A stretch of DNA of 6,733 nucleotides from Sulfurovum sp. GTDB lineage: Bacteria; Campylobacterota; Campylobacteria; Campylobacterales; Sulfurovaceae. Location of the stretch: NCBI GenBank assembly GCA_003978375.1, contig QNZW01000122.1:1-6733 (forward strand), read 5' to 3'. The notes beneath the pieces are model-generated. The model did no database searches and was not told where the DNA came from. It worked only from the letters and a program-made list of their open reading frames with translations. This document shows, piece by piece, positions 438 through 6,733 of this stretch; the stretch's first letter is position 1; every line of letters begins with the position of its first letter. The position numbers and the translations under genes were made by a program.

Positions 438-650
438 ATGCCAGGAATTGTAGTAACATCACGCGAATCGTTTGACGATGCGTACAGAAAGTTCAAAAGA
501 CAGTCAGATAGAAACCTTATCGTGACTGAAGCGAGATCTCGTCAATATTATGAGACGAAGACTGAAAAAAGAAAAAAAGAGAAGATTGCAACACGCAAGA
601 AAATTCTTAAAAAACTCTTCATGCTTAGAAGATACGAGTCTAGACTCTAA
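438..650 (+). CDS. rpsU: 30S ribosomal protein bS21
   Basis: A 70-residue, strongly basic protein, close to the 71 residues of E. coli S21. It begins [20 protein letters not shown], has the family's conserved AYRKFKRQ segment at residues 19-26, and a Lys/Arg-rich helical second half ([14 protein letters not shown], then LRRYESRL at the end). bS21 sits on the 30S platform near the 3' end of 16S rRNA and takes part in initiation. The gene stands alone: it has its own candidate promoter and a strong terminator, so it is probably monocistronic here, unlike the rpsU-dnaG-rpoD arrangement of enterics. Confidence 0.97.
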
Positions 651-1674: not shown

Positions 1675-2838
1675 ATGACATTTACAACCCCATTACAAAA
1701 AGATGCGATTAAAATTATGCTCCTTGGTTCTGGTGAACTTGGCAAAGAAGTCACTATTGAAGCACAACGTCTTGGTGTAGAAGTTGTGGCTGTAGATAAG
1801 TACAAAAATGCACCTGCACACCTAGTAGCAAACCATGCCTATGTGATAGATATGCAAGATGAAAAAGCTGTCCTTGAAGTGATAGAAAAAGAGCAACCTA
1901 CCTATATTTTACCAGAAGTAGAAGCCATCTCCATCTCTGCACTGTTTGAAGCAGAAAAACGCGGTTTTCATGTCATTCCCAATGCAGAAGCAGTCAACAA
2001 AACCATGAACCGCAAACATATCCGTGTCTTTGCTACTGAAACATTAGGGGTTAAGACCAGTGCCTTTGAGTTTGTGACAACTTTAGAAGGGTTAAAAGAT
2101 GCAAGTGAGCGTATAGGATTTCCTTGTGTGATTAAGCCTGTTATGTCATCTTCAGGACATGGACAAAGTATTGCCAAAAGCACAGAAGATATAAAAAAAT
2201 CATGGGAGATAGCCAAAGAAGCCAGAGGAGATGCAAGTGAACTCATCGTAGAAGAGTTTGTCTCTTTTGATTATGAGATAACACTGCTCACAGTACGCAA
2301 CGAAACGGGTACTACATTTTGTCAGCCTATAGGGCATCTTCAAAAAGAGGGTGATTACATTCTCTCATGGCAACCTATGGCTATGAATCAAGCTACACTC
2401 AACAAGGCCAAAGAGATTGCAAAAGCAGTGACAGATGGTTTGGGTGGACGTGGTATTTTTGGGGTAGAATTTTTTATCAAAGATGAAGAGGTCTACTTTT
2501 CAGAGCTTAGTCCACGTCCTCATGATACAGGTATGGTAACACTCATCACCCAAAGCCAAAGTCAATTTGCACTACATGTACGTGCAGTGCTTGGTTTGCC
2601 ACTTGCTTACACCACTTATGGCTCAGGTGCATGTGGTGCTTACAAAGCCAAAAATGAGAGCCATCATCCCGTATTGCATGTGCCTGATGATGCTTTTAGT
2701 GCACATTCATTTGTACGGATTTTTGGCAAACCAGAGTCACATATAGGACGTCGTATGGCAATAAGCCTTGTACTTGATGAAGTAGAAGCAGCCAAAAAAC
2801 GTGCCAGTGAAATCGTCAATCAAATCACAGATTCTTAG
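1675..2838 (+). CDS. purT: Formate-dependent phosphoribosylglycinamide formyltransferase (GAR transformylase 2)
   Basis: 387 residues against 392 in E. coli PurT, with closely similar sequence throughout. This cytosolic ATP-grasp enzyme makes formyl-GAR from GAR, formate and ATP, the folate-independent third step of purine synthesis. Visible are the N-terminal LGSGELGKE loop (17-25; E21/L22 contact GAR in the E. coli enzyme), PEVEAIS (80-86), R113, K154, the ATP loop SSSGHGQ (158-164), the Mg ligands E265 and E277 in [17 protein letters not shown]284, and K352 and R359-R360 near the C-terminus. The ATP loop has His162 where E. coli PurT has Lys (SSSGKGQ). An AAAGG site at 1662-1666 supports the start. 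It is the first gene of a four-gene operon; the next gene begins 8 bp after its stop. Confidence 0.96.
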
Positions 2839-2846: not shown

Positions 2847-3695
2847 ATGCCATTTTTTTCAAGAGTTTTTTTACCATTTTTACTGTTAATTTATATTGCA
2901 ATAGAGACCTATTTAAAGCTTCATCATAGTTCACTTTGTGATGCTACTGGATGTAAATTAGCAGGAGAACTTTTACGTTTTAACCCTATTTATCTCAACT
3001 ACCTTGGTCTCTTTTTTGTCTCGGTATTGACCCTATTAGGATATGCTTCTTTAAAAAGCAATCTTGCACAAAGACTCTTTTTTATGGTACTTTATGCCTC
3101 TATTGCTTTTGAAACAACCATTATCGGATATCAATTTATTGTCAACCCAGAACCATGTGTTTTTTGTTTGGGGATTTTTTCCTCTTTATTGCTTATTGCT
3201 TTGTTGGCTAGGGTTAAAGATTTTTTATTTATTTTGAGTATTGTTCTTGCTATTTTCTTAGCCTTAAGTACCCTTGCCATCCCAAAAAACAAAACCTTTA
3301 TGCAAAATGATGGTGCCTACCTCATACACTCAGATAGCTGTCCACACTGTAAAAAAGTAAAAAAATATCTTTCAGAAAATCATATCAACTATACCCCTAT
3401 TTCTGTAGAAGAAGCCAGTGCGAGAAATGTTTTAAAATTTATGGGTATTGATTCTATTCCTGTGCTTATGGTTAAAGATGCTACAGAAATCAATGTATAC
3501 CGTGGTGACCAAGCAATTATCTCTTATTATACACAAAAAAGTTCTTCACAAAAAAATACCTCTAGTGCTTCATTAGAACACAATTCTCTCAATGTCAATG
3601 ATACCTTTTTAAAAGCAGGAGCAAAGAGTGATGGCTGTGCACTAAGCATTGTTGAGACCACACCTTGTGAAGATAATACGAGTAGTCATGAATGA
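2847..3695 (+). CDS. VKOR-like membrane oxidoreductase fused to a thioredoxin/glutaredoxin-fold domain
   Basis: 282 residues. Five hydrophobic segments (about 6-23, 50-68, 76-97, 105-121, 126-145) carry a Cys pair in the first loop (C31, C36) and a CVFC motif (C104, C107) at the start of segment 4. That is the cysteine order of vitamin K epoxide reductase homologues, not of DsbB, whose CxxC comes first. Basic residues at loops 69-76 and 121-125 put all these Cys and the C-terminal domain in the periplasm. Residues about 157-228 form a thioredoxin-like domain with SCPHCKK (C165, C168) and a cis-Pro motif SIPVL (P205). VKOR-Trx fusions oxidise periplasmic thiols and pass electrons to quinone. 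The Ser expected a few residues after the second loop Cys of VKOR is not evident, so the family call is not certain. A Ser-rich tail (232-282) has two more Cys (C264, C274). Its stop overlaps the next start by 4 bp. Confidence 0.78.
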   Translation: MPFFSRVFLPFLLLIYIAIETYLKLHHSSLCDATGCKLAGELLRFNPIYLNYLGLFFVSVLTLLGYASLKSNLAQRLFFMVLYASIAFETTIIGYQFIVNPEPCVFCLGIFSSLLLIALLARVKDFLFILSIVLAIFLALSTLAIPKNKTFMQNDGAYLIHSDSCPHCKKVKKYLSENHINYTPISVEEASARNVLKFMGIDSIPVLMVKDATEINVYRGDQAIISYYTQKSSSQKNTSSASLEHNSLNVNDTFLKAGAKSDGCALSIVETTPCEDNTSSHE

Positions 3696-5365
3696 AAGAT
3701 GTATTAATCATAGGGAGTGGTGGGGCAGGACTAAGTGCTGCATTAAGTGCTAAGGCATCGGGAGCTTCTGTACTTGTAGTAGGTAAAGCCTACCCTACCA
3801 ATTCCCAAACTTCTATGGCACAAGGGGGCATGAATGCTGCACTTGCCAATGTGGAAGAAGATCATATCAGCACACACATAACCGATACCATCAAGGCTGC
3901 ACATGGCTTATGTGATGAAGATATGGTACGTAAAATGTGTGCAGATGCTCCCGATACCATTGCATGGTTAGAGCATATAGGTGTGCCTTTTTCACGTTTA
4001 ACCAGTGAAGCCAATAAAAGATATGAGGATAACAATGTATTACAAGACAATGACACGCTATCCTCTGAGCTAAACACAAAAAACCCTCAACAAAGTTCAA
4101 TACACACAATAGCCCAAAGACAAATGGGTGGAGCCAGTGCAAAACGTGCTTGTTATGCGCAAGACTACACAGGACTTAAAATCCTTCATACGCTTTATGA
4201 TACCTGTCTTAAAGAAAATATCAACTTTTTAGAAGAATACTATCTTCTTAATCTAGTCACGCTTGATGGTGTAGCCAAGGGAGCAACATTTTTAGATATT
4301 CGCACAGGAGAAATCAAACAAATTCATGCCAAATCTGTGATCATCGCTACAGGTGGTTATGCGAGTCTGTATCATGGCTATACTACCAATGCCTATGGGT
4401 CCACAGGCGATGGCATCGCAGCTGTACTCCGTGCAGGTGGTGCGGTGAGTGATATGGAATTTATTCAGTTTCACCCTACAGCACTCAAACACTCTAGCAT
4501 TCTGATTTCTGAGAGTGCTAGAGGAGAAGGTGGGTACTTGATAAATTCAGATAACAAACGTTTTGTAGATGAGCTTAAACCTAGAGATGAAGTAGCACGA
4601 GCAATTTTTGAGCAATTACAAAAGGGGAAAGAAGTTTTTTTAGACTTGCGTCATTTGGGAGAAAAAACACTTATGGAGCTTCTGCCTCAGGAAGTAGCAC
4701 TTTGTAAGCTTCATGAACATATAGACCCTGCCATTGAGCTTATCCCCATCAAACCTGTAGCACACTATAGTATGGGTGGCATAGAAGTAGATACTGCACT
4801 AGAAGTCAAAGGAATTAAAGGCTGTTTTGCTGTGGGAGAATGCTCTAATGCCAAAGTACATGGTGCCAACCGTCTAGGGGGTAACTCTTTATTGGAAATC
4901 ACTGCTTTTGGTAAATTTGTCGGTGAAAATGCTTACAAATATGCAATCTATGCTAGTAATAAAAAAATAGAAGAGAGACAACTGCAACAAGACAAAAAAG
5001 AGATAGAAGCCATTTATACAAAAGAGAATCTTATCAACTTCTATGAAAAGAGATTAGATCTAGGAAAACTCTTTTATGAAAAAGTAGGTATCCTAAGAGA
5101 CAATGCACAGCTTACACAAGCCATGGAAGAAGTCATTGCCATGCAAGTCATGCAAAAAAAGATAGGCATTGCAGATAAAAGCCAAAAAAACAATACAAAT
5201 CTTATTGAGTATTTAGAATTCTCAAATGCTCTTCTTCTTGCACCTACGATTATCTCTGCTGCACTTGCCCGTAATGAGAGCCGTGGTGCACACTATAAGA
5301 TAGGGTTTGAAAGCCAAGATGATGAGAAGTTTAAGCAGCATATTGTGTTGCAATGGAAGGATTAA
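3692..5365 (+). CDS. Succinate dehydrogenase/fumarate reductase-type flavoprotein subunit, cytoplasmic, lacking the FAD-linking His
   Basis: 557 residues. The chain starts directly in the FAD Rossmann motif (VLIIGSGGAGLSAA, 4-17), with no Tat or Sec signal, so it is cytoplasmic. The family's catalytic residues are present: HPTA (H261), ESARGEGG (E274), PRDE (R298), AHYSMGGIEVD (H358) and HGANRLGGNSLLE (R394), plus the C-terminal ESRGAH. Where E. coli FrdA has SHT with the His covalently bound to FAD, this has SQT (Q39), so FAD should be non-covalent. A polar, Asn/Gln-rich stretch (about 107-142) makes the region before the capping domain longer than in E. coli FrdA. L-aspartate oxidase also lacks the His, but LDLRHLGEK, VGECSNAKVHGANRLG and the adjoining iron-sulfur gene favour the Sdh/Frd class. 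It starts in an ATGA overlap with no clear Shine-Dalgarno, so it is probably translated by coupling. Reaction direction is not determinable. Confidence 0.87.
   Translation: MKDVLIIGSGGAGLSAALSAKASGASVLVVGKAYPTNSQTSMAQGGMNAALANVEEDHISTHITDTIKAAHGLCDEDMVRKMCADAPDTIAWLEHIGVPFSRLTSEANKRYEDNNVLQDNDTLSSELNTKNPQQSSIHTIAQRQMGGASAKRACYAQDYTGLKILHTLYDTCLKENINFLEEYYLLNLVTLDGVAKGATFLDIRTGEIKQIHAKSVIIATGGYASLYHGYTTNAYGSTGDGIAAVLRAGGAVSDMEFIQFHPTALKHSSILISESARGEGGYLINSDNKRFVDELKPRDEVARAIFEQLQKGKEVFLDLRHLGEKTLMELLPQEVALCKLHEHIDPAIELIPIKPVAHYSMGGIEVDTALEVKGIKGCFAVGECSNAKVHGANRLGGNSLLEITAFGKFVGENAYKYAIYASNKKIEERQLQQDKKEIEAIYTKENLINFYEKRLDLGKLFYEKVGILRDNAQLTQAMEEVIAMQVMQKKIGIADKSQKNNTNLIEYLEFSNALLLAPTIISAALARNESRGAHYKIGFESQDDEKFKQHIVLQWKD
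5355..5361 (+). promoter_or_regulatory. Ribosome binding site of the iron-sulfur subunit gene
   Basis: GGAAGGA lies 5 nt before the ATG at 5367, within the last codons of the flavoprotein gene. It selects 5367 over the in-frame ATG at 5307, which would add 20 residues unlike the family N-terminus. Confidence 0.75.
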
Positions 5366-5366
5366 T

Positions 5367-6068
5367 ATGCAAATACATATCTTGCGTTCAGAAACAAATA
5401 CACACCAAGCATATACTCTTTTAGAGGGTGAAACGACACTCCTTCATGCGCTTACACACATTAAAGCCACACAAGATGCTACCCTTACTTTTAGCGCAGG
5501 GTGTCGTGCATCTGTTTGTGGGACGTGTGCTGTGCGTGTCAATGGCAAAGAGGTTTTGTCCTGTGCCTATAAAGTACAAGATGGTGATGTGGTAGAACCA
5601 TTACACTACCATCCTGTCCTACGTGATCTTAAAGTAGACAAATACCAAGCCACAAAAACATTAACAAAAAGTACAGCATGGCTACATCGTTTTACAGAAG
5701 CATCTCTTAATCATAAAGATGAAAAACGTACAGAACGTCAAACAGATTGTATACTTTGCGATGCTTGTTACTCTGCTTGTCCTGTTTATGCAGTTAATCC
5801 AGACTTTTTGGGACCTTTTGCACTCACACGTGTGTATCGTTACAGTATAGACAAACGTGAAGACGATACCAAAACACTCATAGCAAATATCCAAACAAAT
5901 GGTGTATGGGATTGTACCTTATGTGGAGAATGTACCATGGTATGCCCAAAAGGCATAGATCCTAAAATGGACATTACCATGCTACGCGGAGATTCTATTT
6001 CCCACGGTTACTCCGATCCAAACTTTGCTACACAAAATTTTGGATTTGATCCAAACATTAAGTTTTAA
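5367..6068 (+). CDS. Succinate dehydrogenase/fumarate reductase-type iron-sulfur subunit with a second four-Cys cluster motif
   Basis: 233 residues, similar in length to E. coli SdhB/FrdB. The N-terminal plant-type ferredoxin domain has C46, C51, C54 and C66 for [2Fe-2S]. The C-terminal domain has CILCDACYSACP (C128, C131, C134, C138) and CTLCGECTMVCP (C183, C186, C189, C193), followed by KGIDP as in classical members. In E. coli FrdB/SdhB the second motif has Val/Ile at the place of C186 and binds [3Fe-4S]. The extra Cys here predicts [4Fe-4S], as in non-classical (archaeal-type) complexes and thiol:fumarate reductase. No cysteine-rich CCG extension is present. It starts 1 bp after the flavoprotein stop and should carry electrons to or from its FAD. 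It is the last gene of the operon, with no membrane anchor gene after it. Confidence 0.92.
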   Translation: MQIHILRSETNTHQAYTLLEGETTLLHALTHIKATQDATLTFSAGCRASVCGTCAVRVNGKEVLSCAYKVQDGDVVEPLHYHPVLRDLKVDKYQATKTLTKSTAWLHRFTEASLNHKDEKRTERQTDCILCDACYSACPVYAVNPDFLGPFALTRVYRYSIDKREDDTKTLIANIQTNGVWDCTLCGECTMVCPKGIDPKMDITMLRGDSISHGYSDPNFATQNFGFDPNIKF

Positions 6069-6099
6069 TCAACTCAAACTAAGAAGATTAAAACTTTTT
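6060..6099 (+). terminator. Intrinsic terminator of the purT operon
   Basis: A perfect 11-bp inverted repeat (6060-6070 with 6086-6096, 15-nt loop) ending in a run of five T (6095-6099). The first arm contains the stop codon of the iron-sulfur gene. The stem is AT-rich with only two G-C pairs, so efficiency may be modest. For the converging minus-strand gene the hairpin lacks a good U-tract, though it may still help. Confidence 0.7.
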
Positions 6100-6102
6100 A
6101 CT

Positions 6103-6733
6103 CTAATTTAACTCTTCTCTTCTCAAATAAACTAATCCTGTTATCAGCATAAGTATCATTAAAAAGAACATACTCGCTTTTCCAAAGGTATCACCACTAT
6201 CTGTTATATCTTCACATTGTTCAATGTTTCTCTTATATTTTATAGATATTGTGGCTTGATTACTTATATTTTCACAATTATCTTTTACACTATATTGTAT
6301 GCTTACTGTTTCATTTAAATCATCTTCTGGTGTAAAAATAACTTTCCCTGTATCTACATCAACTGACCATGTACCTTTATCTTCTACTTCGATTGTAGGT
6401 ACTTGTTCACCTGAATCATCTATTAACCTAACACTCTCTTTTCTAAGTGGCATATCTGAAGTATCATTGTGCAATACGTCTATTGTTATGGTTTTATTTA
6501 TCTTAGAAGTTACCGTATCATCTTTTGCAACAGGTGCTTTTGCTTCATCACATGTCATTTGTATAGGTGCTGATGCAGGAGTTGGTGTTGGCGTTGGAGT
6601 TGGCGTTGGAGTTGGAGTTGGTATTGGCGTTGGAGTTGGTGTCGGTGTACATACTTTTGGTACCACAAACCCATTGTTCTCTTCTTGGTTCATCACCCCT
6701 GCTTTAATTGCCACAACCGTTGGGTTACTTCCT
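6103..6733 (-). CDS. C-terminal part of a surface protein: Thr-Pro linker, CshA-type fibril repeat, membrane-anchoring tail
   Basis: The frame is open to the right edge (GSNPTV precedes the GTG at 6714), so this is the 3' end of a larger gene; about 209 codons are visible. In order: a segment resembling the end of an SdrD-B-like repeat (NPTVVAIKAG..NNGFVVP), a Thr-Pro linker (6577-6650), and a domain with PVAKDDTVTS, ITIDVLHNDTSD, GTWSVDVDTGKVIFTP and IQYSVKDN (about 6235-6535). The last matches the CshA-type fibril or bacterial cadherin-like repeat. The protein ends with a hydrophobic stretch (about 6120-6177) and RREELN, a tail pattern like Gram-negative sorting or anchoring signals. Such proteins are usually exported adhesins. 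The domain classes are recognised by pattern; SdrD-B is the least certain. Confidence 0.75.
   Translation of the reverse strand, partial: GSNPTVVAIKAGVMNQEENNGFVVPKVCTPTPTPTPIPTPTPTPTPTPTPTPASAPIQMTCDEAKAPVAKDDTVTSKINKTITIDVLHNDTSDMPLRKESVRLIDDSGEQVPTIEVEDKGTWSVDVDTGKVIFTPEDDLNETVSIQYSVKDNCENISNQATISIKYKRNIEQCEDITDSGDTFGKASMFFLMILMLITGLVYLRREELN
6581..6646 (-). repeat. Hexanucleotide repeat encoding the Thr-Pro linker
   Basis: Eleven tandem copies of a GTTGGN-type hexamer (plus-strand reading), with single departures (one ATTGGC, one GTCGGT). In the coding frame the Pro codon is almost always CCA while the Thr codon varies among ACA, ACT and ACG; one Thr is Ile. It encodes an extended, stiff linker between surface domains. 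The mixed wobble bases should lower slippage compared with a pure repeat. Confidence 0.85.

Follow-up and report, generated by a model that had tools for sequence, protein, structure and literature searches.

Does the close packing of two redox enzymes in one gene block reflect a working partnership between them? The question is raised by a 6,733-nucleotide contig (QNZW01000122.1, hereafter the window) of a Sulfurovum metagenome-assembled genome of 1.58 Mb that is 79% complete, in which the gene for a VKOR-like membrane protein fused to a glutaredoxin-like domain (the fusion) is followed directly by those for a flavoprotein and an iron-sulfur subunit (the pair):

2847..3695, + strand: the fusion, 282 amino acids, with a VKOR-like membrane domain, a glutaredoxin-like domain and a C-terminal cysteine tail
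3692..5365, + strand: SdhA/FrdA-type flavoprotein, 557 amino acids, predicted to be cytoplasmic and to hold flavin adenine dinucleotide (FAD) non-covalently; matches FAD_binding_2 and Succ_DH_flav_C
5367..6068, + strand: SdhB/FrdB-type iron-sulfur subunit, 233 amino acids, without a CCG half; above the cut-off of TIGR00384 dhsB

The coordinates of all three genes were confirmed, as was the tight block described in a first-pass annotation of the sequence, down to the 4-bp overlap (ATGA) between the fusion and flavoprotein genes and the 1-bp gap before the iron-sulfur gene. That annotation went on to suggest that the pair is functionally tied to thiol redox state. The comparative data make such coupling unlikely, and the window probably encodes two enzymes whose genes lie in one cluster but which are not mechanistically coupled, namely an anchorless, predicted cytoplasmic fumarate reductase pair and a VKOR-like membrane protein that is likely a thiol oxidase.

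The comparison draws on surveys of 100 genomes, of named loci and of fetched stretches, which overlap, many of the named loci lying on the same contigs as the genome set. The fusion is encoded in 24 of the 100 genomes, that of the window included, and 21 of these belong to Sulfurovum, which contributes 61 genomes to the survey. Among the 32 high-quality Sulfurovum genomes, 31 have an orthologue of the flavoprotein and seven have the fusion, and 24 of the 31 pair-bearing genomes are without it. The reverse is also seen, as a relative with a 99% complete genome (G062) encodes the fusion without the pair, and two further genomes (G065 and G099) possess both on different contigs. The 52 named fusion loci are all titled Campylobacterota or subgroups thereof; 31 lie near purT, YjbQ, a D-2-hydroxyacid dehydrogenase gene or the flavoprotein gene, and the remaining 21 have none of these four within 3.5 kb. 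Even at the cluster the two are usually separated, a D-2-hydroxyacid dehydrogenase gene (NF006263 equivalog), which the window does not have, standing between fusion and flavoprotein in 13 of the 19 fetched loci with a fusion in the same run. The contents of the slot vary and can be the fusion (at a few loci together with a thioesterase), YjbQ (UPF0047), both or nothing.

A coupled system, in which fumarate reduction would be driven by, or would sense, the thiol/disulfide or quinol flux from the fusion, has in its favour the tight spacing in the window, the possibility that both enzymes touch quinone, and a locus (L226) at which the fusion stands divergently beside the cluster. A point against a simple sharing of the cluster is that the Sulfurovum genomes with the fusion (21 of 61) keep it in the same slot wherever the contig permits a check, which coupling would likewise predict. 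Coupling is nevertheless not supported, because most genomes with the pair do not have the fusion and the fusion is in many cases encoded away from the pair, and we consider coupling very improbable. Besides the 24 high-quality genomes, G062, the 21 distant loci and the gene that usually intervenes, the two enzymes are predicted to lie on opposite sides of the membrane, and the pair is without the CCG half found in TfrB. The proposed tie to thiol redox state is thus not supported, and the reservation attached to it, that the VKOR and thioredoxin sites are predicted to be periplasmic and the flavoprotein cytoplasmic, stands. The VKOR-like domain was also considered as a membrane anchor for the pair and rejected, as the fusion is absent from those same 24 genomes.

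The best reading of the adjacency is that a single arrangement was inherited within Sulfurovum and among its near relatives. When mapped onto a tree of 53 fusion proteins (a quick tree with long branches), the adjacency label changes twice, compared to a mean of 16.8 changes after shuffling, and none of 500 shuffles gave so low a number; L196 and L200, whose contigs end before the flavoprotein, and L226, with its divergent fusion, were counted as adjacent. The adjacency may still have had a single origin. Had it been peculiar to this strain, the first-pass suggestion would have been refuted on its own terms, but with 31 of the 52 named loci near the cluster it is clade-wide. In another branch, at L214, L219, L220 and L222–L225, the fusion lies divergently beside genes that by eye resemble those for ribosomal proteins L21 and L27 (families k12 and k13), from which it follows that the location of the fusion varies freely. 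At two further loci, L221 (position 4570) and L227 (position 6887), only a few genes, among them members of families k29 and k65 at both loci, separate it from a flavoprotein of the SdhABE type that is unrelated to the short pair.

The fusion has four cysteine pairs, of which the first three form its core:

2937..2954, + strand: codons for the loop cysteines C31 and C36, invariant in 53 of 53 proteins
3156..3167, + strand: codons for the CVFC pair C104/C107, the predicted quinone-side active site, both invariant in 53 of 53
3339..3350, + strand: codons for the CPHC pair C165/C168 of the glutaredoxin-like domain, both invariant in 53 of 53
3633..3668, + strand: codons for G263–C274, the tail with the fourth pair C264/C274, present in 52 of 52 intact proteins and in 120 of 120 listed homologues

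The best fold match of the structure model is Synechococcus VKOR, which bears out the reading of this gene as a VKOR/thioredoxin-fold fusion, and the protein combines a loop cysteine pair with a CxxC motif in a helical bundle of VKOR topology, the features that define the family. Telling against this assignment, the fold match came with a high whole-chain root-mean-square deviation and low TM-scores, and the sequence falls below the gathering cut-off of the Pfam VKOR family (PF07884); it is because this cut-off is not reached that we call the fusion VKOR-like and not VKOR. The profile exceeded its cut-off in none of the 100 genomes, although 24 encode the fusion, compared to three of 14 control genomes, and gave two sub-threshold matches, one of them on a fusion (G010). 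The DsbB family (PF02600) is reached by the fusion of the window at 22.8 against 22.1 bits, over part of the profile only; a DsbB match of any strength is seen on four of the 21 Sulfurovum fusions, three of which exceed the cut-off. Sequence searches of the PDB with the fusion or its alignment returned glutaredoxin-type and unrelated chains and no VKOR or DsbB chain, save for one DsbB at an E-value of 0.96. Among the best 120 of 442 homologues, a set that includes the protein of the window, the only names are hypothetical protein or glutaredoxin-type.

The fusion likely oxidises periplasmic thiols to disulfides, and it would hand the electrons from these thiols on to quinone. For the Synechococcus enzyme the relay described in PMC3800646 runs from client to thioredoxin pair, loop pair, CxxC pair and quinone. 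By extension, electrons in the fusion would pass from client, by way of the tail pair C264/C274 (the place of which is uncertain), to C165/C168, C31/C36, C104/C107 and finally menaquinone. Whether DsbB and the fusion replace one another in Sulfurovum was considered and rejected: apart from the four matches on the fusion itself, DsbB was found in G012 alone, which also has the fusion, and the Sulfurovum genomes without the fusion gave no DsbB match either. Of the 24 fusion-bearing genomes in the first survey, one has a separate recognisable DsbB.

In an alignment of the protein of the window with those of the 52 named loci, the six core cysteines are invariant in all 53 and the two tail cysteines in all 52 with an intact C-terminus, L196 having been dropped from the tail count as its protein is cut by the contig end. 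The linker before the tail pair is variable and largely polar, and the number of residues between the two cysteines ranges from 8 to 15 in the 52 proteins and is 5 in the distant protein of G062. All of the best 120 homologues have exactly eight cysteines, and in these the commonest residue of a column takes a mean share of 0.76 in the core, 0.49 in the linker and 0.82 in the tail. The tail itself is of low confidence and disordered in the structure model. Plant VKOR-Trx proteins carry ‘four conserved cysteines’ located in the thioredoxin domain (PMC4555120), and four pairs are thus not unprecedented; what differs here is the location of the fourth pair on a tail that is predicted to be disordered.

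The simplest placing of the fourth pair, by analogy, would be as a shuttle disulfide between the glutaredoxin CxxC and clients. Shuttle pairs of this kind sit on mobile segments in the Erv/Ero1 sulfhydryl oxidases. There too a cysteine pair relays between active site and client (shuttle pairs are named in PMC3800646), although these are FAD enzymes of another fold and no homology is claimed; in the available part of PMC3401233 no detail of the Erv2 tail was found. The pair could instead be a structural or metal-binding element, a reading to which the variable spacing of the cysteines lends itself and for which the tail, having no predicted fold, offers no modelled site; as no more than two ligands are conserved in the tail, no histidine among them, and as the cysteines are invariant though the linker diverges, we regard this as rather unlikely. 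The shuttle is part of a wider proposal that we put forward tentatively and at something short of even confidence, namely that the fusion represents an unrecognised Campylobacterota branch of VKOR with a four-pair relay, in which a floppy tail would swing between the glutaredoxin domain and clients, so combining the functions of DsbB and DsbA in one chain. The Pfam VKOR model misses this protein, and its invariant tail pair leads to a clean, testable prediction, namely that an enzyme of VKOR-like type has a shuttle disulfide. Among the best-ranked titles and abstract openings of open-licence papers none dealt with a VKOR fusion from Campylobacterota or with such a tail pair, which does not show that none is in print; in the parts of two papers that were available, PMC4460558 mentions VKOR only in general, and PMC4555120 does not contain ‘epsilon’ and names Campylobacter and Helicobacter only in a reference title.

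Turning to the pair, its sequence supports an anchorless enzyme of the fumarate reductase type. The flavoprotein matches FAD_binding_2 with an E-value of 3.4e-99, together with Succ_DH_flav_C, and scores just below the cut-off of the sdhA_frdA_Gneg model (554.7 against 567.3). Alignment to solved SdhA/FrdA chains showed that H261, R298, H358 and R394 of the dicarboxylate site are kept, residues to which we assign the roles known from Escherichia coli FrdA, and that Q39 occupies the position of the FAD-linking histidine; all five are invariant across 20 aligned sequences, that of the window among them. FAD is predicted to be non-covalent because of this replacement. The iron-sulfur subunit combines a single plant-type [2Fe-2S] motif with two complete C-x2-C-x2-C-x3-CP motifs, with cluster cysteines that are invariant in 17 aligned rows, so that the non-covalent FAD and two [4Fe-4S] clusters predicted in the first-pass annotation are both retained, and with the FAD domain, the dicarboxylate residues and the ligand sets for one [2Fe-2S] and two cubane clusters the pair has the features of the complex II superfamily. 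The subunit scores 175.6 bits against a cut-off of 88 for TIGR00384 dhsB and does not reach the more specific models (TfrB, 157.4 of 385 bits; MfrB, 136.8 of 600), matching the 488-position TfrB model over positions 5–222 only. An identity of the flavoprotein as L-aspartate oxidase was rejected (NadB model, 367.6 against 452.75 bits); a separate 490-residue homologue on contig C129 of the genome is taken as NadB by its size only. Two features of these chains are variable or shared in ways of their own: a flavoprotein insertion of up to about 35 residues between FSR and IAQR (3998–4108 in the window) is found in some Sulfurovum and is nearly absent from the aligned relatives outside this genus, and the short iron-sulfur subunits share a C-terminal G-F/L-D/E/N...F motif across families (6039–6065), which is possibly a docking end for an electron donor.

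No anchor or CCG gene was found within the window by Pfam domain search or in its gene list, in agreement with the earlier statement that SdhC/SdhD, FrdC and CCG-type genes are missing from the operon. The same holds more widely: at 47 fetched loci whose flavoprotein has at least 46% identity, no heme-b or hydrophobic anchor gene of the quinol:fumarate or succinate:quinone reductase type was recognised among the genes running on the same strand. Three of these loci have an unassigned same-strand neighbour with at least three hydrophobic stretches (a glycosyltransferase, a permease and a DUF1538 protein that has a P-II domain). On other contigs the genome carries a second SdhA/SdhB/CCG set of the SdhABE type (C62) and a GlcF/LdhH-like CCG protein (C4), and no FrdA of the size found in quinol:fumarate reductases was found in this incomplete assembly.

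The pair might be completed by a partner encoded elsewhere, for instance a protein that oxidises NADH or ferredoxin, or the CCG subunit that belongs to the second SdhABE-type set, which we consider quite possible without expecting it. Like the E-type complexes (PMC2680327), the pair has ligand sets for two [4Fe-4S] clusters, the shared C-terminal end could serve as a docking motif, and a CCG protein is present on C62; this protein is encoded with an SdhAB of its own, and the same-strand neighbours at the 47 loci include no redox partner gene that recurs. A distant partner would bear on the donor alone and fits with an anchorless cytoplasmic enzyme as the best explanation of the pair.

The flavoprotein orthologue is present in 56 of the 61 Sulfurovum genomes by manual reading of the search, which matches 99 of the 100 genomes, many of the matches being other family members; of 397 Campylobacterota genomes, approximately 123 have the short iron-sulfur subunit when the E-values are divided by hand. 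An anchorless two-subunit enzyme is close to universal among the Sulfurovum examined, and many genomes related to them also have it. Across the 397 genomes, 97 have both the pair and ATP-citrate lyase, 26 the pair only, 21 the lyase only and 253 neither, in a table compiled by hand with an E-value split near 1e-80 and with counts that take no account of kinship. Five genomes of unsure class were excluded from the strict pair count (with them the figures become 102, 26, 16 and 253), six weak lyase matches were not scored as lyase, and the iron-sulfur search profile included one long SdhB of another type, which raises matches of that type. This co-occurrence supports a link of the pair to the reductive tricarboxylic acid (rTCA) cycle, with real exceptions. 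A two-subunit FrdAB copy has been described in a Campylobacterales genome (PMC4674564), where Sievert et al. (2008) are cited as suggesting that such an FrdAB is cytoplasmic and part of the rTCA cycle; putative TfrAB proteins, interspersed with flx-hdr genes, have been noted in gammaproteobacteria with this cycle (PMC6315080), and the available parts of PMC2147049 and PMC2628731 do not describe a two-subunit pair. The pair is thus of a kind already known in print as a putative cytoplasmic fumarate reductase of the rTCA cycle. In the cytoplasm it would turn fumarate into succinate and not the reverse, chiefly in the service of this cycle, with electrons taken from a soluble donor, and the identity of this donor would set the energy cost of this carbon-fixation step.

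Several points count against this role. The genome of the window itself, 79% complete, gave no match to ATP-citrate lyase, 20 genomes of family f8 (e.g. G202, G281 and G399) have the pair without the lyase, and the reverse is true of 16 genomes in families f15, f20 and f9; the lyase is therefore neither necessary nor sufficient for the pair. The lyase search matched none of the 14 control genomes and the co-occurrence statistic ignores kinship, no electron donor for the pair was identified, and the direction of the reaction, the substrate and the topology are all predicted. Since the 20 f8 genomes carry the short iron-sulfur subunit without the lyase, the enzyme probably has a role beyond the rTCA cycle as well.

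These same genomes can be cited in favour of a pair that is mainly a succinate dehydrogenase, or acts on another C4 acid, and has its link not with the rTCA cycle but with the neighbouring D-2-hydroxyacid dehydrogenase, as can the occurrence of an NF006263 gene near the flavoprotein both inside and outside Sulfurovum (32 of 61 fetched stretches, including L128, L129, L137, L139, L141 and 27 more). We find this improbable, given that the four dicarboxylate-site residues are invariant, that the genome of the window keeps the pair and has no NF006263 match above cut-off in its 79% complete assembly, and that loss of the FAD-linking histidine abolished succinate oxidation in the enzymes cited by PMC2680327. 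The related enzyme with non-covalent FAD treated in that paper reduces fumarate, with no detectable oxidation of succinate.

The block itself extends beyond the three genes, and two further features bound it:

1675..2838, + strand: purT, formate-dependent glycinamide ribonucleotide formyltransferase, co-directional; above the cut-off of NCBIfam PurT
6060..6096, either strand: AU-rich hairpin, predicted terminator between convergent genes, with fold z-scores of -3.8 (+) and -2.8 (-)

With 8 bases between the purT stop and the start of the fusion, the block begins further upstream than had been stated, and purT recurs upstream of the fusion/YjbQ slot in relatives. The terminator placed at the end of the operon was recovered as the hairpin, which has an 11-pair outer stem that begins within the last iron-sulfur codons and ends into U's, with a minimum free energy of -8.6 kcal/mol, a z-score of -3.8 and none of 200 shuffles equally good; a consensus promoter and terminator scan, whose totals were not above those of shuffles, does not list it because it is too poor in G+C. 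Beyond it lies a convergent gene (6103–6732, - strand) for a surface-type protein that by domain search has a Big_9/CshA-like repeat, and by eye a (TP)n linker and a C-terminal hydrophobic stretch followed by RREELN that resembles a sorting or anchoring signal. Upstream, at 438–650 (+ strand), a small basic protein is encoded, presumably ribosomal protein S21, whose family (c6) is represented in 23 of the 61 fetched stretches and in most of these precedes purT.

Considering the known fumarate reductases, methanogen thiol:fumarate reductase (TfrAB) likewise has non-covalent FAD, two [4Fe-4S] clusters and no membrane anchor, and the likeness to it that had been proposed is real as far as these features go. 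In the methanogen enzyme thiol oxidation is carried by the C-terminal, HdrD-like CCG half of TfrB. Because this half is missing the thiol part is absent from the pair, and membership of TfrAB was rejected (233 residues against the 488-position TfrB model, and no Pfam CCG match). Hydrogenobacter has FrdABCDE, a soluble, NADH-dependent fumarate reductase of five subunits with an NADH-oxidising part; no NADH-oxidising neighbour of this style was found in the window by Pfam, no search with Hydrogenobacter sequences having been made. The MfrABE/SdhABE enzymes of Campylobacterota share with the pair a non-covalent FAD and a second [4Fe-4S] cluster in place of [3Fe-4S] (PMC2680327), but membership was again rejected, as the pair has no twin-arginine translocation (Tat) extension and no CCG anchor gene beside it: the FAD_binding_2 match starts at residue 3, and the aligned protein shows no N-terminal extension like the one of some 40 residues in the MfrABE type, the CCG anchor-like gene of the genome sits with another SdhAB on C62, and the scores are 425.9 of 1100 and 136.8 of 600. 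Also close are the two-subunit FrdAB proteins of the same phylum, which also consist of a flavoprotein and an iron-sulfur subunit without a third subunit and have a proposed cytoplasmic role in the rTCA cycle (PMC4674564); the cluster of the window differs in adding the fusion and in being without the D-2-hydroxyacid dehydrogenase gene, and the proteins are presumably orthologous.

The fusion, in turn, follows the plan of Synechococcus VKOR-Trx and Arabidopsis LTO1, with VKOR-like helices, a loop pair, a CxxC motif and a C-terminal thioredoxin-fold domain that has its own CxxC. It departs from them in that this domain is glutaredoxin-like and in its last 45 residues, as the Synechococcus chain ends at approximately residue 282 where the model reaches residue 237, and the tail has no counterpart there. 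With its tail pair the fusion varies the VKOR-Trx design in a new way and is a more interesting lead than the pair beside which it is encoded.

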